Shown one piece after another: positions 4,682 through 17,391 of a stretch of 22,233 nucleotides of DNA. The position numbers and the translations under genes are program-made. Position 1 is the stretch's first letter. Each line of letters starts with the position of its first letter. The stretch spans positions 1-22,233 of IMG/VR virus record IMGVR_UViG_3300019487_000102. One strand, given 5' to 3'. The notes under the pieces are model-generated. The model was not told where the DNA came from. It did not search any database and saw only the letters and a list, made by a program, of their open reading frames with translations. Source of the DNA: a virus.

Positions 4682-4980
4682 CAGGCGCTCCGCAGATAGA
4701 CGAGCGTAATCCCGGTGCCGTCAGGCTCGAAGCGCTTGACCCGGAACGCTTTGACGCCGCCGTCGACCGAGACCTGGACGACCGCATCCTTCTGCAGCTT
4801 CGCAGCCGCAACGTCGGAGCTCCGCATCGTAGCAACCGGGCCGCGCTCCTCCACATCGTTGACGGGCAGGTATTGCTCGTCGAACACGACGGAATAGCCG
4901 GTCCCGCCTTGAGCCGCGAGCGTCGCTCCGTTGCCGAGCGCCTGGATCTCCGCCAGGCGATCGGCATCGGATTCGAGCAT
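4681..4980 (-). CDS. Head-tail joining protein, FII-like
   Basis: This 99-residue protein has a short N-terminal helix followed by a beta-rich domain (SVVFDEQY, AVVQVSVDGGVKAFRV, TGITLVYLR) like lambda gpFII, which joins the finished head to the tail. Its place between head genes and the tail terminator supports this. ATG at 4980 was chosen; a GTG one codon earlier overlaps the preceding TAG and is an equally possible start. The stop shares ATGA with the next gene. Confidence 0.65.
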   Translation of the reverse strand: MLESDADRLAEIQALGNGATLAAQGGTGYSVVFDEQYLPVNDVEERGPVATMRSSDVAAAKLQKDAVVQVSVDGGVKAFRVKRFEPDGTGITLVYLRSA

Positions 4981-4982
4981 CA

Positions 4983-5363
4983 CTAGACGATCTTCTTCTT
5001 ACCGCTGGCAACGACGCCAACCAGTGACGGGCCGGTGGCGATCGTGCCGACGTACCCGAGGAAGCCTCCGACGACCTGCTTCGGATCGACTACCAGCGAA
5101 GATGTGCTGTTCGCCGTGTTCGTGCCGAAGGTCTGACCGGAGATGTCGGCTGCGCCGGTGCCGTTGGCGTCCGTTGCGCTTTGCAGCTTGCCGGCGATGG
5201 TGCCGGTCACGGCGCCGAGGTTCTGAGTGACGAGGATCTCGCCGTCATAGGCGCGGACGTCCAGCCATTTACCTGATCCGCTCGTAGCATTGGCGGTGGC
5301 CGCCGCAGACAGCGAGGCGAGCAGCGAAGTGGAAGTAGCCGCAGAGGCTTGACTATTCAACAT
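4983..5363 (-). CDS. Head-associated hypothetical protein, Ala/Ser/Thr-rich
   Basis: This 126-residue protein starts at an ATG with AAGGAG nine bases upstream. The first ~30 residues are almost only Ala, Ser, Thr, Leu and Asn. The rest is beta-prone with phrases such as KWLDVRAYDGEILVTQNLG and VGGFLGYVGTIATGPSLVG. Similar proteins are common just downstream of capsid genes in temperate siphoviruses, but I know of no assigned function. A decoration or minor head role is possible from position and composition only. No signal peptide or membrane helix is convincing. Confidence 0.8.
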   Translation of the reverse strand: MLNSQASAATSTSLLASLSAAATANATSGSGKWLDVRAYDGEILVTQNLGAVTGTIAGKLQSATDANGTGAADISGQTFGTNTANSTSSLVVDPKQVVGGFLGYVGTIATGPSLVGVVASGKKKIV

Positions 5364-5366
5364 GAC

Positions 5367-5570
5367 CTATTTCTCCTTCTTGCCGGACTTCTCCGGCGCG
5401 GGTGATTTGAGCGCGGGCGCAGGATCCGAGACGGGTTCATCCTTGACCCGTTCGACGGCTCCGATGCCAGCGAGAAAAGTGACCAGGGCGGGTTCCAGGT
5501 CCGCGGAGTCGCCGGCCTTTAGGTGCCGGTCGACTCCGATGCAAACACCCCGCAGTGCTTTGACCTTCAC
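5367..5570 (-). CDS. Small head-region hypothetical protein
   Basis: This 67-residue protein begins at a GTG three bases after the capsid stop codon, with no clear ribosome binding site, so it probably depends on coupling to capsid translation. The first ~40 residues (starting MKVKALRGVCIGVDRHLKAG) form a compact segment of a type often seen as a small gene after major capsid genes. The C-terminal ~25 residues are Pro/Lys/Glu-rich and probably disordered. Function unknown; an assembly or connector accessory role is guesswork. Confidence 0.75.
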   Translation of the reverse strand: MKVKALRGVCIGVDRHLKAGDSADLEPALVTFLAGIGAVERVKDEPVSDPAPALKSPAPEKSGKKEK

Positions 5571-5573
5571 GGA

Positions 5574-7475
5574 CTAGGCCGCGAGGTTGGTCGACACGAC
5601 GAACGCCTGCGGGTAACGCAGGAGCACGTCGACCAGCCACATCGCGCGGATGCCGACCTGCGCCGTGTTGAAGCGCGTGCCGCCATTGTCGGTCGACAGC
5701 TCAAGTACGCCCCACTCGCCGATGACGACCTCGTCGAAGCTGCCGAAGATCAGGTTACCGGAGGCGAGCTGTTCGCTCGACATCGCGCGGAAGCCGACCA
5801 TCGACCCGTCGAGCAGGTTGCCTTCCCAAAGCGGGGTATCCGTGCTTGAGAAGCGCTGCTTCTGCGCCAGCACCGATGCGCCGGTGATGTTGGTTACAAA
5901 GCCTGGGTTCCCACGAATGGCATTTGCCGCACCCGCCGCCGCAACGAACGCCAGGATCTTGGCGTAGCTCGCCGCCGCCGCGTCCTGACCGCTCGTGATT
6001 CCGGGCGTGTTCTTGATGCCCAAGGGCTGTGCACCGCCCGTGCCGTTGATGACCGCAGCGTCCACGCCATCGATCGCGACGTCGGCCGCGAGGTCGGCCA
6101 TGACGAACTGCTCGGCCGACGGGGACGACTGCGCGAGCAGCTGTTCCGAAACGTCGGTGATCGCGATGCAGGTCTTCGGCGTCATGGAAAGCTGACCGAG
6201 CGCCTGATCGGCCGCGGTCACGCTCACGCCTTCACCGGCCTGCCAGGTCACCGAGACCTTGCCGGTCTGACGCGGGAAGGTCACATTTCCCTGCAAGCCG
6301 GAAAGCCTACGGGCGCCAAGCGACATAGACACCGAGCGGTTCCGCAGGATGTCGATGAAGCCCATGTTCTCGACGTTGACCAGGTAGCCGCCTTTCGAGC
6401 CAGGCGTGGTCGCCAGTGCGCGAACGGCTGCTTCGCCCAGCGGACGCTGCAGCACTTCCGACGGGATGAGCATCGACGAGCTCAGCTCGCGGCCCAGCTG
6501 CTTGCCGACTGCGCGCGAGCACTCGTACTCGAATCCAGCCTCCTCGATGAAGCGCCTGTCCTGACCACCGAACCGCAGGGCGCGGATCGCACGGAACAGG
6601 CTGTAGCGGTTCGTCTCGCTGCGGGACAAGCCGAGCGCAGCTGCTGTCATCGGCTTCTGTTTGCCGCGCTCTTCCAGCACGTCACAGATTTCCTTGCCGA
6701 CCTGGGTCAACGAGGTGCCGTCCTCGATCCAGCGCGCCTCGACGCGGGCGTCGATGCGGTTCGCCTTGCTGAAATACTGGATCGCCTCGCGGCGCTCCTT
6801 TTCAGCCTGGACTGCGGTGACTGTCTCGGCGCGGGACGGTTCTGCAGCAGCAGCGCGGGGCTGCGCTTCGGCGTTAGGGGCCGCCGCGCCCTGGGGGGTT
6901 TCCATTCTAACTTGCTCCTGGGTTGCGGCGGTGCCCGCCGTAGATGAAGTCCGCAAAATGCGAACCTCGAACTCTTGGCCAGCGCCTGATCGGCCCTGAC
7001 CGACTGTCGGATCCGCGGGAACCGAGACGATCGAATACTCGAGCGGCTCCCATTCGCGGACGTAGCTGGTGTGGGTCTTCGGGTCTTCCTCGACCCGGTG
7101 GACCCGGTAGCGCGTTGAGACGTTGCGCAGGCCACCATTCATCATGGCCTCGACTTCGCGCGCCCTTTCGGTGTCGAAGAAGTGCGCATCGACGATCGTG
7201 CGCTCACCTTCGATACGCACGTCATCGACCATCCCGACCGGGTCGTCCATGTCGTGATTGAACAGCAGCGGGAGCGCGCGCAGCTTCGCGCGATCCAGTC
7301 GGACCGAGCCAGGCTTGTGATCCAGCACCTCGTCGCCGAAGAAACGCTCGACGCGGTATGTGGATGAGCCGCTGAACTTGATCGAGGTCGGCTTTCCTGA
7401 TTCCTTGCGGATCTCGATGTCGCCGACATCAAGCAGCCTGGTGAGCGCCGCAACTTTGATCGTCTCTTCTGTCAT
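5574..7475 (-). CDS. Prohead protease fused to HK97-fold major capsid protein
   Basis: One 633-residue frame joins two proteins that are usually separate. Residues 1 to about 165 match HK97-type prohead proteases, with the catalytic His in LLFNHD (H74), Ser in GGLRNVSTRYRV (S120) and the family end motif EYSIVSVPADP (146-156). An Ala/Pro/Glu-rich linker (about 180-240) and a helical region resemble the scaffolding delta domain. The rest, from about 310, resembles an HK97-fold capsid subunit, ending with VGIRAMWLVDVLLRYPQAFV. The protease should act in the prohead to free the capsid subunits. ATGA overlap couples it to the portal gene. No separate scaffold gene is present. Confidence 0.92.
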   Translation of the reverse strand: MTEETIKVAALTRLLDVGDIEIRKESGKPTSIKFSGSSTYRVERFFGDEVLDHKPGSVRLDRAKLRALPLLFNHDMDDPVGMVDDVRIEGERTIVDAHFFDTERAREVEAMMNGGLRNVSTRYRVHRVEEDPKTHTSYVREWEPLEYSIVSVPADPTVGQGRSGAGQEFEVRILRTSSTAGTAATQEQVRMETPQGAAAPNAEAQPRAAAAEPSRAETVTAVQAEKERREAIQYFSKANRIDARVEARWIEDGTSLTQVGKEICDVLEERGKQKPMTAAALGLSRSETNRYSLFRAIRALRFGGQDRRFIEEAGFEYECSRAVGKQLGRELSSSMLIPSEVLQRPLGEAAVRALATTPGSKGGYLVNVENMGFIDILRNRSVSMSLGARRLSGLQGNVTFPRQTGKVSVTWQAGEGVSVTAADQALGQLSMTPKTCIAITDVSEQLLAQSSPSAEQFVMADLAADVAIDGVDAAVINGTGGAQPLGIKNTPGITSGQDAAAASYAKILAFVAAAGAANAIRGNPGFVTNITGASVLAQKQRFSSTDTPLWEGNLLDGSMVGFRAMSSEQLASGNLIFGSFDEVVIGEWGVLELSTDNGGTRFNTAQVGIRAMWLVDVLLRYPQAFVVSTNLAA

Positions 7476-11965: not shown

Positions 11966-12048
11966 CCACCGGAAGGAACCTAGTAACCCATTGGCGCTAG
12001 AAATACAGGGGGATTGCCATTACCCGACCCACTTTGCCACCGGAAGGA
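11966..12048. repeat. 12-base direct repeat around the HNH gene 3' end
   Basis: CCACCGGAAGGA occurs exactly at 11966-11977, just after the HNH gene stop, and at 12037-12048, within its coding end, 71 bases apart. It may be a trace of a duplication or insertion event at the 3' end of the HNH gene. It is short enough to be coincidence. Confidence 0.5.
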
Positions 12049-12426
12049 CCCGTCGCGTTCAAACAGCGATCTAATCAAAGGCTTGCGCGACTTGCTGAAG
12101 TTGCATGGCTTGCAACAGACCACCACGTTATCTAATGAGTGGTGACCGCCCAAGGTGAGCGGATGAACGTGATCCATCGACTTGTGTAGCGACCCAATTC
12201 GCTCTAGGCAATATGAGCAGAACACCGCTTCGGCGAAGAGACGACAGATCGACTCCGATGTGATTGAGCCGTCATCGGTCGCTGCAATCCTTGCTGCGCG
12301 CCGCGCCTTTATCGTCTGCGCCTTGAATATCTCGCGTGCGCGGAACTCTTCATCAAGTCGATAGCGAACCCGATACTTCTCTGAATCTGGATACCCTTTC
12401 CAATTCCTTCGATCTGCGGCCGTCAT
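11980..12426 (-). CDS. HNH endonuclease
   Basis: This 148-residue protein has the HNH beta-beta-alpha metal motif: CSYC (70-73), MDHVHPLTLGGHHSLDN (84-100) and CCKPCN (104-109). His86 and Asn100 sit at catalytic-type positions, and two CxxC pairs probably hold structural zinc. Phage HNH proteins beside the terminase can be required for genome packaging cleavage, or can be selfish homing endonucleases. A hand count over 12061-12360 gives 161/300 GC (54%), clearly below one sampled terminase line (72%), consistent with separate acquisition. The ATG at 12426 has no good ribosome site, and a CxxC-containing frame overlaps its start, so the true N-terminus may differ. Confidence 0.85.
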   Translation of the reverse strand: MTAADRRNWKGYPDSEKYRVRYRLDEEFRAREIFKAQTIKARRAARIAATDDGSITSESICRLFAEAVFCSYCLERIGSLHKSMDHVHPLTLGGHHSLDNVVVCCKPCNFSKSRKPLIRSLFERDGSFRWQSGSGNGNPPVFLAPMGY

Positions 12427-12508: not shown

Positions 12509-13273
12509 TTAGATCAAATGCCTCGCGGCCTGCTTCCTGCTGGCGAGCTCGATCTCGTACTTGAGCTGCAGCGGGTAGTGCTTCTGGAACTCGCGCTCGG
12601 CGATCTCGAAGAAGTGCAGGCGCTTTCGATACTTCGGACTACGCACGAAGATCAGCACGGGCTCGACTGCCGTGCCATATCCGAACACCACGCGCCGATA
12701 GATCCCCCGCCTGGTCAATCGCCCGCGCGGCGCTCTCAGGTAGAAGTAAGTCTCGCCGTAGGCCTTACCCTTGACCCTCGACACACGGCCAGGCGCGCGG
12801 GTGAGCGCGTCGAAGGATGCGTCGACCCTGGACAGGATCTGCTGCATCTGTCCACGGCTGATGTTTCCGTGACCATCTAGCCTGGCCTTCGCGCCGGGCA
12901 CGATGTACTCGTCTGATGCAAGAATCCCACGCTGCCGTAGCAGGGTCTCGCTTCTCTTACTGACCCTGCCACCACCAGCAATGTGATGGCCCAGCCAGGA
13001 GATGTGCTTGTTCGGCAAGCTGATCGCGTCGTCTTTGATCTTCAGGGTGGCCTCAAGATTCTGAGGCGTGGCTGCTTTGATCCAGGTCGAGTCGAGCGTG
13101 CGGCGGGTGGGTCGATCGAATACCCGGCCAGCGTCTCCAGTTATAGCGGGCTGTATTGCTTTCTTGACCGTGAAGGTCAACGCCTTCGCAATCGCAAGCG
13201 GGACGACTGTCTTCTGCCAGAGCTGCAAGTCGCGCGTCAGCTTCGTCGTGTTGATCGAGACCGACAGCTGCAC
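12509..13273 (-). CDS. Minor tail protein-like (Z/gp10-like), virion assembly
   Basis: This 254-residue basic protein starts at a GTG overlapping the previous stop (TAGTG), with AAGGAAG just upstream. The N-terminal pattern KTVVPLAIAKALTFTVKKAI (21-40) followed by VFDRPTRRTLDSTW (51-64) and an alternating LEATLKIKDD matches a phage family I know from proteobacterial siphoviruses, loosely related to lambda minor tail protein Z. The C-terminal helix (HFFEIAEREFQKHYPLQL) also fits. In lambda, Z acts between FII and U in tail maturation. Here that place is empty and this gene lies before the terminase. Assignment to Z is tentative; virion assembly is likelier. Confidence 0.6.
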   Translation of the reverse strand: MQLSVSINTTKLTRDLQLWQKTVVPLAIAKALTFTVKKAIQPAITGDAGRVFDRPTRRTLDSTWIKAATPQNLEATLKIKDDAISLPNKHISWLGHHIAGGGRVSKRSETLLRQRGILASDEYIVPGAKARLDGHGNISRGQMQQILSRVDASFDALTRAPGRVSRVKGKAYGETYFYLRAPRGRLTRRGIYRRVVFGYGTAVEPVLIFVRSPKYRKRLHFFEIAEREFQKHYPLQLKYEIELASRKQAARHLI

Positions 13274-13761
13274 TAGCGCTTCCTTACGTTGACCCTCTGC
13301 CTGGCGATGCGCGTCAAGCCATCCAGCGTGAACGTGAACACGGCGTCATAGCTCTCACCGGCGACCCCGCCAGCATAGGTGGCGAGGATCTTAAAGTTCT
13401 CCGATACGCTGACGCTCGAGATGGTCAGGCCAGTCGGATCGGATTGTGCCGATGGCCCGCTGACTACGTTCAAGCCATTAGCGGCCGCAGCTCGGCACGT
13501 CCACGTTGCGCTGCCGTCGATGTTCTGCTCGGTGATCGTGGTCTTCCATCGGGGTTCCTTGTTCCCGGTCAGGCCGGCGAGCGTTACCTCGTAAGAGAAA
13601 CCGTTCGGCACGTTCGGGCGGATAAACTCCGCCAGAGATACGGGCTCGTTAGGTTGCCAGCGCAGTACGCACAGATCGTACAGGTCGATTAAGACCTTCA
13701 GCGACTCGCCCGGGTCCTTTACTGCGTCTTCTCTGACGCGGTACTCCGAGTCGCTGGACAT
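13273..13761 (-). CDS. Two-module beta-rich virion protein
   Basis: This 162-residue protein has a start segment VKDPGESLKVLIDLYDL (14-30). A module follows with the recurring phage pattern FIRP.VPNGFSYEVT.AG.TG..EPRW....DGSATWTC (about 46-89), and then a second beta-rich module (about 112-160) containing ATYAGGVAGESYDAVFTFTL. Both are typical of surface-exposed phage structural proteins with Ig-like or carbohydrate-binding-like folds. It lies directly after the repeat protein and is coupled to the next gene by TAGTG. A fibre, decoration or tail-surface role is inferred from fold pattern and neighbours. Confidence 0.65.
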   Translation of the reverse strand: MSSDSEYRVREDAVKDPGESLKVLIDLYDLCVLRWQPNEPVSLAEFIRPNVPNGFSYEVTLAGLTGNKEPRWKTTITEQNIDGSATWTCRAAAANGLNVVSGPSAQSDPTGLTISSVSVSENFKILATYAGGVAGESYDAVFTFTLDGLTRIARQRVNVRKR

Positions 13762-13773
13762 TCTCCGCTCCTG

Positions 13774-14847
13774 CTAATGGATCGTTTTGAACCGGGTCGG
13801 ATCAGCGCCACCCTCGAAGCGGTCCTCGTCATCTTCTGCGTCGAAGTCCTGGCGATCAGCCGTTGCTTGCACTCGGTCAGGATCAGCGTGCGCCGTGAAA
13901 CGCTGCTGATCCGCATAGGCTACGAACAGAGCGCGGAACTCAGTCGTGCTCGGGGCCGCGGGCTGAGTGGGGTCTATGACCCACGCGCCGAGGCGATTCG
14001 GCGCCCTGGCGCGCGCAGGCTGCAATCCAGATAACAGCCACTGCAGCCCATCCGGCCGATACAGCGCAGCGAACGGAGGCTGGGCGAATGCGCCGAGAAG
14101 CCGACGCTCGACCGGCGCTCTCGTGTTCCCGCACGGTAGCCAGGTCAGCGATTGCGGCTCGAAGATCGGCTGCTGCTGCAGCGTCCAGTCGAGGCGCGCG
14201 CGCGGCAGCGCCTTACCCGAGTAGCTGTCCTCGGACTGCCAGGTCAGGAACTCCGGCCGGAACAGCGCAGCAAAAGGTGGCTGCTGGAAGTCTGCGACCC
14301 GGCGGAGCTCGGTGCGGGCGACGTATTCCCTACCCTGCGGGATCCACTCCATCGTGCGCGGGTCGTAAGCGGGCGCCTGGAACTGAATCGGCCCGACGGT
14401 CCAGTCACGCTGTACTCGAGTCGTGGGCCGCGCGGTGTAGCGCGTGGCGCCGTCCCATTGCAAGTGCTCTGGCTTGTAGAGAGCTTCGAATACCGGCTGC
14501 GCGAAGGCGCCGAGAAGCCGACGCTCGACCGGCACCTGCGGAGCACGGCCCTGCGGTATCCATTCCAGCGTCCGCGGATTCGCCGGCGGGATCGGATCCA
14601 GTACGCCAGAGCGCGTGAGCGCGTAAGGCAGTCGCTGCCCGCGGTAGCTATCCTCTGCGATCCACTGCAAGCCCTCGGGCTTGTAGAGCGCCGCAAACTC
14701 AGGCCGGGCGTAGTCTCCGAGCCGATTCTGCGCTAGGCCGCGTTGCGGTGCGCGTCCCTGCGGTATCCAGGTAAGGCGAGACGCGACCGGCTCGGTCCAG
14801 ACCGGACCAGTGACCGGCGTGTATTGCAGCTGCGTCCGCTCTGCCAC
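13774..14847 (-). CDS. Repeat protein: four ~70-residue units plus nonapeptide ladder
   Basis: This 357-residue protein has four tandem units at about 25-93, 94-165, 166-233 and 234-303. Each opens with a WIPQG-like block (LTWIPQGR, LEWIPQGR, MEWIPQGR, LTWLPCGN). Each continues with RRLLGAFAQPPFAALYRP or a close variant and ends in LQW or LTW. The C-terminus (309-355) is a second repeat of nine residues: YADQQRFTA, HADPDRVQA, TADRQDFDA, EDDEDRFEG, GADPTRFKT. No cysteine pattern, enzyme motif or signal peptide is visible. The start is GTG at 14847, dependent on coupling to the gene just upstream. The repeats and the virion-type neighbours suggest an elongated structural or fibre protein. Function is otherwise unknown. 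Confidence 0.85.
   Translation of the reverse strand: MAERTQLQYTPVTGPVWTEPVASRLTWIPQGRAPQRGLAQNRLGDYARPEFAALYKPEGLQWIAEDSYRGQRLPYALTRSGVLDPIPPANPRTLEWIPQGRAPQVPVERRLLGAFAQPVFEALYKPEHLQWDGATRYTARPTTRVQRDWTVGPIQFQAPAYDPRTMEWIPQGREYVARTELRRVADFQQPPFAALFRPEFLTWQSEDSYSGKALPRARLDWTLQQQPIFEPQSLTWLPCGNTRAPVERRLLGAFAQPPFAALYRPDGLQWLLSGLQPARARAPNRLGAWVIDPTQPAAPSTTEFRALFVAYADQQRFTAHADPDRVQATADRQDFDAEDDEDRFEGGADPTRFKTIH
14090..14533. repeat. Exact 27-bp DNA repeat within the repeat-protein gene
   Basis: The same 27 bases (beginning gcgccgagaag, ending ctcgaccggc) occur at 14090-14116 and 14507-14533, encoding PVERRLLGA in repeat units 4 and 2. Identity at synonymous positions suggests recent duplication or gene conversion between these two units. 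Units 1 and 3 have diverged more. Confidence 0.85.
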
Positions 14848-14849
14848 AC

Positions 14850-15095
14850 CTAGTAGCTACCTGTATTGATCAGCCGCTCGAGATCCTTACAAGTCCAGCA
14901 CCCGGGCGCCCCGCAATGCGCCGCGCGGTGCTTCATGCAGAAGCCGCGCCTCCGACCAGAGCCTGGCTGCACAACCCAGTGCCCGCCGCAATGGCAGCAC
15001 TGCAGCGTGTCACGGGTTACCACCGGACCATCTCCGACGATGATGATATGCCCGGCGGGTTGGCGCGCCGACTCTTCGGAAAGAGTCGAGCTCAA
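14850..15095 (-). CDS. Cys/His-rich small zinc-binding protein
   Basis: This protein of up to 81 residues has cysteines at about 33, 34, 36, 53, 61, 66 and 69 and nearby histidines (CCHCGGHW, GFCMKHRAAH, CGAPGCWTC). This looks like one or two zinc-binding knuckles. Similar small proteins occur among virion genes of temperate siphoviruses, with no function I can name. The start is unclear. A TTG directly follows the previous gene's TAA in the same frame. A GTG about 24 codons later has GGAG eight bases upstream but would remove GHIIIVGDGP, which looks like real protein. The gene is tied to the repeat-protein gene by a two-base gap. Confidence 0.7.
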   Translation of the reverse strand: MSSTLSEESARQPAGHIIIVGDGPVVTRDTLQCCHCGGHWVVQPGSGRRRGFCMKHRAAHCGAPGCWTCKDLERLINTGSY

Positions 15096-15539
15096 TTACT
15101 CGTCCCAGCCTATCGTCAGGTTCGTGTTCGGTGTGCCGCCAGACGAGATCGACCGCACGCCGATGCCGTTCGCAGTGCCGACCACGGTGCGCAACTCGCG
15201 GCCCGGGTTGGAGATCCAGGTGAACGTTGCGCGCTGGTTGAGTGGGAGTTCGAGCAGGAAGTCCGCCTCGTAGGTCGGCTCCGTCATCGTTCCACCGCGC
15301 AGGTTGCAGGAGGCCGCGGCCGATTGCGGGTCCGTCGGCTTCTCGAGGACCGCCGTGCCACCCGTGCCCGCGGTCGTGTGCCGATACGCATCGTATCGGG
15401 TAGCGATGTCGGCCGGTGGGGCGTCGGAGCCGAGAATCATCTGGTGGATCTTGCCGACGACCGAGGCTGACGACTCGAGGGCGAGGATCGTCAAGTTCAA
15501 GCCGGCCGGCGTCCGGTGGACGCCCTGGTACGCTGCCAT
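15096..15539 (-). CDS. Virion-associated hypothetical protein
   Basis: This 147-residue protein begins MAAYQGVHRTPAGLNLTILA and contains ADIATRYDAYRHTTAGT, NQRATFTWISNPGRELRTV and a closing strand TNLTIGWDE. It is beta-rich and recalls a recurrent uncharacterised protein of phage structural clusters. The ATG at 15539 has GGAG nine bases upstream. It ends in TAA with the Cys-rich gene following in the same frame without a gap. A structural role is inferred from neighbours. Confidence 0.75.
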   Translation of the reverse strand: MAAYQGVHRTPAGLNLTILALESSASVVGKIHQMILGSDAPPADIATRYDAYRHTTAGTGGTAVLEKPTDPQSAAASCNLRGGTMTEPTYEADFLLELPLNQRATFTWISNPGRELRTVVGTANGIGVRSISSGGTPNTNLTIGWDE

Positions 15540-16026: not shown

Positions 16027-17208
16027 CTACATGCCGATCGCGTGTCGGAACTGCGGCTGCGTGAGACAAACGCTGATCTTGATTTCCGGGGGCGAGCTGG
16101 CGATCTGCACCGCAGCTAACGGACGCTGGATGTAGCGCCACGGCACCGTGATCAGCCAGCGCGTGTTGCGTACCGCATTCGTCACCAGGGTCTCCGGGCT
16201 CCACGTCGCGCCGCCGTCCGTAGAACCTTTGCAGTAGACGTTGATGGACGTGTTAAAGGTTTCACTGCCGCCCGATTTGCCGCCGTAGAACACCAGCCAG
16301 TACCCGGTGACCGAGTCGATGCTGATGGCGCACATTCCCTGGCCGCCGGTGCTGTTGAGCACGACGTTCGCCGAGGTTTCGGTGATCGCTGATTCGGTGA
16401 TCTTCCAACAGCGCAGGTCGGCATTCGCAGTGCCGGTGCCGGACCATGCAACCAGCACGATGCGGCTGTTCGTCAGGTCAACCGCGACTGCAAAATCCGG
16501 CCAATTGTTCGCCGGATCCTGCTCGGTCATCGAGGTTGCGATCGATGTCTCAGCCCAAGTATTAGCCGAGTCGTCGTAAACCTTGCGGCTGATCTCGTTG
16601 GCGCTGGCGTCCCAGAAGATCGCCATGATGTCCTGATCGTCCGCGGCAAAGCCGGGCACGAGGATCATCTGGTCGCCGGTGGCTATGGTCTCGTCAACCG
16701 TGCGCGCAGCGTCCCATGCCCCGTTTGGAACGTTGGCATTTGGAAGCCGGTAAAAGCCGCCTTCCGCCCCGGCGTCGATCACAGTCTTGCAGTAGACGTT
16801 CCCGCCGCGAGCGCGCGTGATCGAGAGGTGACAGCCTGCGGCGGTCGAAGCGCCAGCAAAGATCGTCGTCTGCGTCGAAAGGGCGTCCGAGCTCGCCGTG
16901 TCGATCGTGCGGTATAAGGTGTCGTCGGTTGCCGATTCGGTATAGGCGCAGTGAATCAGGCCGGCCGCTATACCGCTCCATCGGTCGAACCAGATCGAAA
17001 GCTGAGTAACCGTACCCGCGAATACAACAGTCGCGGCCGACCAGGTGAGCCCCCCGTCGGTGGACTTCTTGAATGCCACGTCGGCGCCGGAGTCGACATA
17101 CACACAGTAAAGAACGCCGGCGGTTGTCTCGACGAGGTAGTTCGTGCTGGCGGTGTTGGAAGTTGCCGCAGCGACCTCGGCAACCATCACATCGGCACGA
17201 GCGGGCAT
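16027..17208 (-). CDS. Sialidase-like Asp-box (BNR) protein
   Basis: This 393-residue protein starts at ATG 17208 with AGGAG six bases upstream; upstream in-frame residues cross a hairpin and look non-coding. Two Asp-box motifs, STDGGLTW (49-56) and STDGGATW near the C-terminus, each sit in beta-hairpin context. Between them lie repeated strand-rich segments such as GGNVYCKTVIDAGAEGGFY and NSRIVLVAWSGTG. This fits a sialidase-type beta-propeller. I see no clear set of sialidase catalytic arginines, so it may bind glycans or serve as a structural propeller rather than cleave. As first gene of the late operon, before virion-type genes, a fibre or host-surface role is plausible. Confidence 0.75.
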   Translation of the reverse strand: MPARADVMVAEVAAATSNTASTNYLVETTAGVLYCVYVDSGADVAFKKSTDGGLTWSAATVVFAGTVTQLSIWFDRWSGIAAGLIHCAYTESATDDTLYRTIDTASSDALSTQTTIFAGASTAAGCHLSITRARGGNVYCKTVIDAGAEGGFYRLPNANVPNGAWDAARTVDETIATGDQMILVPGFAADDQDIMAIFWDASANEISRKVYDDSANTWAETSIATSMTEQDPANNWPDFAVAVDLTNSRIVLVAWSGTGTANADLRCWKITESAITETSANVVLNSTGGQGMCAISIDSVTGYWLVFYGGKSGGSETFNTSINVYCKGSTDGGATWSPETLVTNAVRNTRWLITVPWRYIQRPLAAVQIASSPPEIKISVCLTQPQFRHAIGM

Positions 17209-17228
17209 CGAATCTCCTGCAAATAGAA

Positions 17229-17259
17229 TGGGCCCGAGCCGTATGCCGACCCGGGCCCA
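17229..17259 (-). repeat. Hairpin ahead of the Asp-box gene
   Basis: An inverted repeat (TGGGCCCG and CGGGCCCA, 15-base spacing) lies 20 bases before the Asp-box start codon. On the minus strand it is followed by TTCTATTTG and then the ribosome site. It could be a weak terminator or a leader structure affecting translation. A second small inverted repeat (GCTGCGG/CCGCAGC) lies at 17346-17360. Confidence 0.45.
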
Positions 17260-17391
17260 GTGCCAGTGCTTGGGGATGCAAATCACCGGCCGCCGCTCAG
17301 GGAGGGGAACGGCGACGCCTCGCGGCGCTCGGGAACAGGGCCGCCGCTGCGGCCCGCAGCCTGTGCCGAAGCAGCAGGGGGTGAAAACGAC

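Follow-up and report, generated by a model that had tools for sequence, protein, structure and literature searches.

A family of Trp/Pro repeat proteins in a three-gene cassette of unrelated phages, and its possible role as a virion appendage

The 357-residue repeat protein (REP) encoded at positions 13,774–14,847 of the window (minus strand, as are all the coordinates of REP, its cassette and its downstream neighbor given below) is encoded by the last gene of a conserved cassette of three that occurs in unrelated phages, a setting that the initial annotation had missed. The window is the whole 22,233-bp stretch that was analyzed; it is the complete viral-metagenome record IMGVR_UViG_3300019487_000102, and its genes include a lambda-type portal (TIGR01539), a prohead protease/major capsid fusion, and a tape-measure protein. 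The comparisons set out below best fit describing REP as a new family of repeat proteins within an equally new mobile cassette, the general kind being known. The reading that we favor, and to which we give about an even chance, is of a mobile virion-surface cassette, consisting of a 147-aa protein, a Cys/His protein, and REP, in which REP serves as an appendage of variable length. The genes around phage head genes are in many cases without an assigned function, and an invariant three-gene cassette offers a defined, testable unit.

Repeat register and family membership

REP starts with a GTG codon 2 nt past the stop codon of the upstream Cys/His gene and is laid out as a conserved N-terminal cap, eight units of about 35 residues that carry an LxW motif, and five C-terminal nonapeptides. 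The cap, VAERTQLQYTPVTGPVWTEPVASR (14,776–14,847), was delimited from the family alignment, in which Y9 and TGPVW are invariant and the consensus reads aersqYQYQPvTGPVWREPVA. The units, each 33–37 aa long, begin at LxW, end before the next LxW, and come in two flavors, for which the alignment of 68 units from 15 of the 16 family proteins gives the consensus LxWxPxGxxPxxx...RLGDFxqPxFxALYkPeg (type A) and LxWxxxDrYxGrxLpRaRxDwsvxPxxxxAPayDPqt (type B). In the window, the order is A B A B A B' A B (n = 8). Unit alignment places the type A units at residues 25–59 (unit 1; 14,671–14,775), 94–128 (unit 3; 14,464–14,568), 166–200 (unit 5; 14,248–14,352), and 234–267 (unit 7; 14,047–14,148), with the type B units at residues 60–93 (unit 2; 14,569–14,670) and 129–165 (unit 4; 14,353–14,463) and a short B unit with an internal LDW at residues 201–233 (unit 6; 14,149–14,247). 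The terminal unit 8 (residues about 268–302; 13,942–14,046) was recognized by a motif common to relatives, LQWLLSGLQPAR...LGAWVIDPTQP, which stands immediately before the variable C-terminus.

The initial annotation had described four units of about 70 residues, and the four blocks on which it relied (WIPQG/WLPCG, P.F.ALY.P, and LQW) are indeed present, but each is a pair of 33–37-aa units, A plus B. The elementary unit is about 35 aa rather than 70, because the halves of the 70-residue blocks align with each other and because relatives break the A-B alternation (A-A-A-A-B-A-B in contig L018, A-B-B-B in L026, and B-B-A in L028). The autocorrelation of the whole protein peaks at lag 72, with a score of -0.21, the 99% limit from shuffles being -0.47. 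As for the C-terminus, the five nonapeptides at residues 311–355 (13,783–13,917) are exact 9-mers as first described (YADQQRFTA, HADPDRVQA, TADRQDFDA, EDDEDRFEG, and GADPTRFKT), and their lag-9 score was reached by 0 of 5000 shuffles, but only some of them fit the proposed ADxxRFxA pattern closely. This region is replaced in relatives, and no match to it was found among the phages searched.

The whole window protein, used as a query, retrieved nothing from isolate phages, viral contigs, or 84,980 genomes, and a second scan of a genome collection for REP came back empty. An alignment of its four A units (A2) recovered five viral contigs, an alignment of six full REP proteins (A3) gave 14 loci, and further REP contigs were added by scans with the two upstream neighbors, the 147-aa and Cys/His proteins, with duplicates removed. 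Defined by an N-cap followed by several LxW units of about 35 aa, encoded directly after a Cys/His gene and downstream of a 147-aa gene, the family comprises the window and 17 other metagenomic viral contigs, all uncultured, with protein lengths of 181–563 aa and identities to the window protein of 31–51%. The unit HMM matched all members over multiple domains with E-values below 1e-11, and other ORFs and reversed ORFs used as controls scored no better than 0.1. The initial failure to assign the 70-residue unit to a known repeat family was borne out by searches, in that the REP unit had no match in Pfam, PHROGs, NCBIfam, PDB sequences, or, by tblastn, isolate-phage records; one relative weakly matched phrog_8490 (5e-4), a PHROG without a described function, and a literature search did not find the family. 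PDB sequence searches with REP, with a REP-like protein in L003, and with profiles of the gp77-like protein discussed below and of the 147-aa and Cys/His proteins yielded nothing beyond chance.

The cassette, its relatives, and its insertion sites

The first gene of the cassette (15,096–15,539) encodes the 147-aa protein, recognized in alignment A5 by SDATPAD, GTMTEPTY, and LNQRATFTW motifs, and the second (14,850–15,095) an 81-aa Cys/His protein, a putative zinc finger (alignment A4) that is present in every REP contig and follows the pattern C-x-H-C...H-W...GSG...G-x-C...C-G...C..C. The window copy of the latter reads CMKHRAAHC, with His where 11 aligned relatives have Cys (a CMKC motif), a substitution compatible with a zinc ligand. 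The order 147-aa protein, Cys/His protein of about 80 aa, REP is kept on one strand in 17 of 17 REP contigs, in which identities to the window proteins are 54–84% for the 147-aa protein and about 36–68% for the Cys/His protein. The genes mostly abut, although in L016 and L092 about 0.46 kb more separates the 147-aa gene from the Cys/His gene, and the cassette of L030 is cut at the contig end. An independent test of the linkage came from a scan with the 147-aa family alone, which found 19 loci: the unit HMM detected REP in all 16 of those at 54% identity or more and in none of the three at 41% or less. Among annotated phage records, MW202566.1 (L033; 5695–7646) alone has distant 147-aa and Cys/His genes, and it also carries genes annotated mhsp60 and groEL ahead of its terminase.

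Scans with the Cys/His family reached further, and the unit HMM found REP in 16 of its 45 loci, the remaining contigs being without it. In the distant loci, the gene after the Cys/His gene shows a period of 33–38 or 71–72 residues (z > 4) in eight loci, against one of 62 control ORFs, and a QYQ/QYP N-terminus occurs in this gene in 11 of 31 loci, not all of them independent, compared with 29 of 1058 ORFs in a background count that itself takes in REP genes; one protein in this slot has a Laminin_G_3 (lectin-like) domain. The distant repeat proteins were not matched by the REP unit HMM, searches of phages with two of the zinc-finger-linked ones returned no match, and they are taken here as analogues of REP, with no kinship claimed.

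Different proteins with a period of about 33 residues and an N-terminal domain are encoded in L003 (5806–7977; 724 aa) and L005 (2666–4654; 663 aa), where they occupy the slot before a gp77-like gene and are preceded by Cys-rich and approximately 156-aa proteins; they are not claimed as REP homologues, since despite their similar period and position the unit HMM did not match them. In L011, it is a Gly/Ala-rich short-repeat protein (4735–5601) that precedes the gp77-like gene, so that this slot looks generally variable. The phage structural region of the same contig also contains a sulfotransferase-like sequence (FVAIPRTGSTSIASAL; 2250–2702).

The genes flanking the cassette encode terminase, portal, protease, capsid, connector, or tail proteins, and they include at least five portal/connector families, namely phrog_12082 (the L014 group), phrog_332 (L028), phrog_12 (L019 and L021), phrog_21 (L026 and L035), and phrog_156 (L032, a partial match). 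In most contigs with assignable flanks, the cassette has terminase or portal genes on one side and scaffold, protease, or major capsid genes on the other; the window has it before the small terminase gene, the L035 copy separates the large terminase from the neck/portal genes, and in L015, L018, and L092 its neighbors are tail, internal-virion, or undefined virion genes instead of capsid genes. The portal and capsid proteins of L026 are 57% and 38% identical to those of the window, and the other REP contigs compared share no further window gene. Since both flanking genes and positions differ among contigs, the cassette is bound neither to a particular backbone nor to a particular site. A cassette common to phages with at least five portal families raises the questions of its contribution to the virion, of the way it attaches to capsids that are unrelated, and of the reason for which a repeat protein of adjustable length is always paired with a Cys/His protein; if it does encode a surface appendage, this would be a transferable one, compatible with many capsids.

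Gain, loss, and exchange of units

Comparison of unit number among relatives, which the initial annotation had singled out as informative, revealed variation by whole units: the REP proteins of L014 and L017, which are 84% identical, differ by one whole unit of 35–36 aa, and the window protein lacks one 37-aa unit present in L019. L019 and L035 are collinear through most of the repeats and end in unrelated sequences, and the short C-terminal periods differ from protein to protein (9 in the window, 9 in L019, 11 in L026, and 12 in L035). The sequence pattern is one of a conserved N-cap, predicted to anchor the protein, and a replaced C-terminus; together with the elastic middle, this is how an anchored appendage whose tip is exposed would be expected to look.

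Within the window gene, the 27 identical bases reported earlier for two units were located in units 3 (14,507–14,533) and 7 (14,090–14,116), and the tract, GCCGGTCGAGCGTCGGCTTCTCGGCGC, exceeds anything in 60 synonymous-codon shuffles, in which the longest identical tract averaged 15.2 bases and reached a maximum of 22. No other member among 16 of the family has an identical tract above the maximum of its own shuffles, and the signal of unit exchange is therefore specific to the window gene. In line with the suggestion of ongoing exchange, a recent conversion or duplication between units 3 and 7 is plausible, in this gene alone.

Proposed role and alternatives

Structure prediction of the whole protein, a check put forward with the initial annotation, was run and yielded no fold: AlphaFold2 gave a pLDDT of 31 from the single REP sequence and, with 28 in-phase alignment rows, a pLDDT of 58 and a pTM of 0.14, with almost no helix or strand. 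The alignment-based model has no helix of four or more residues, and REP contains 11.2% Pro. This low-confidence model speaks against a compact globular repeat of the Ig, TPR, or beta-propeller type, and its near-absent secondary structure is what would be expected of an extended or oligomer-dependent chain, with disorder equally compatible.

In the favored reading of REP as a variable-length appendage, the N-cap (YQYQPvTGPVWREPVA) would dock on the virion, probably through or together with the 147-aa and/or Cys/His proteins; the Trp/Pro/Arg units of about 35 residues would form an elongated stalk without a compact fold, the length of which would be altered by gain, loss, and conversion of whole units; and the C-terminal segment would be an exposed, swappable tip touching the host or the environment. 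It is the virion location, the docking, the stalk shape, and the adhesive tip that we infer here, and the unit structure, the cap, the length changes, the cassette order, and the differing backbones that were observed directly. What speaks against this reading is the Cys/His partner, which virion appendages do not usually have and which might indicate a task inside the cell.

The earlier proposal of a fiber or tail component is right in placing the gene among virion genes, but the tail is just one option, given that the cassette mostly lies between terminase/portal and major capsid genes; this frequent placement makes head attachment at least as likely. That REP is specifically a tail-fiber or tail-tip component, attached through a neighboring gp77-like adaptor, we consider unlikely. 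The gene directly downstream of REP in the window (13,273–13,761), which is followed by a minor tail protein, weakly resembles Pfam PF23148, the gp77 fiber-tail adaptor of podophages, with an E-value of 3e-4 that does not reach the curated cut-off; L003 and L005 likewise have a gp77-like gene after a protein with a period of about 33 aa, and tail-collar-like genes lie downstream of the cassette in L015. However, the gp77-like gene better matches a head-decoration PHROG (2e-5), falls outside the conserved cassette, and does not adjoin REP in the other REP contigs compared, and the cassette sits between portal/terminase and capsid genes in L014, L017, L021, L023, L028, and others.

A less probable possibility is that REP is not a free-standing fiber but a mostly disordered linear binding strand, a cement or assembly organizer that would engage one repeated virion subunit, or one copy of the 147-aa protein, per unit. 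The lack of regular secondary structure in the alignment-based model, the single conserved LxW...P...W constellation of each unit, as expected for repeated docking, and the obligate 147-aa partner all speak for such a strand, although swapped C-termini and a loosely fixed number of units are more in keeping with an exposed appendage than with a strand bound to a fixed lattice. Least probable of all is a cassette that acts inside the cell and outside the virion, in host take-over, as an assembly chaperone, or in a defense-related role, for while the Cys/His protein resembles intracellular zinc-binding proteins and all members lack virion annotation in Pfam, PHROGs, and NCBIfam searches, the cassette lies among late virion genes in unrelated phages and REP evolves in an appendage-like manner.

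Among known systems, REP as an appendage may come closest in its working to the accessory capsid fibers T4 Hoc and phi29 gp8.5, by analogy and as a member of neither. T4 Hoc is built of Ig-like modules with a C-terminal capsid-binding domain (PMC10385173, PMC7602432), and capsid fibers of this type share with REP a conserved binding end and a string of variable repeated modules, Hoc being accessory and surface-exposed and REP so by proposal; in REP, however, the conserved end is N-terminal, and tandem Ig-like domains were found neither by Pfam matching nor, as a beta-sandwich, in the low-confidence AlphaFold model. The phi29 gp8.5 protein is an accessory elongated head appendage with a proposed role in aiding cell attachment (PMC6542822, PMC7602432), and as an appendage REP may resemble it in this, but gp8.5 is an alpha-helical coiled coil, whereas REP is Pro-rich without predicted helix. 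Collagen-like phage fibers likewise have a low-complexity repeat stalk of variable length, but their Gly-X-Y tract is absent from the REP translation. No homology of REP to a tail-fiber family was found in PHROGs, Pfam, NCBIfam, PDB sequences, or phage tblastn, and the weak likeness to PF23148 noted above belongs to the downstream gene and not to REP itself. It is also possible, if on balance doubtful, that proteins like REP make up a widespread unnamed class of virion appendage, characterized by Trp/Pro repeats of about 35 residues, a QYQ/QYP N-terminal anchor, and a Cys/His partner, in a cassette that would pass from one tailed-phage backbone to another, unrelated one, while recombination of units re-tuned the tip and the length of the stalk.

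The surroundings of the cassette in the window hold further genes of note. Upstream of it and in the same direction, a 419-aa protein (16,027–17,286) gives weak BNR/Asp-box matches, as in a sialidase-like beta-propeller, and on the other side an HNH endonuclease (11,980–12,426) lies between the minor tail and small terminase genes, with a relative at the same place in L012 and L013.
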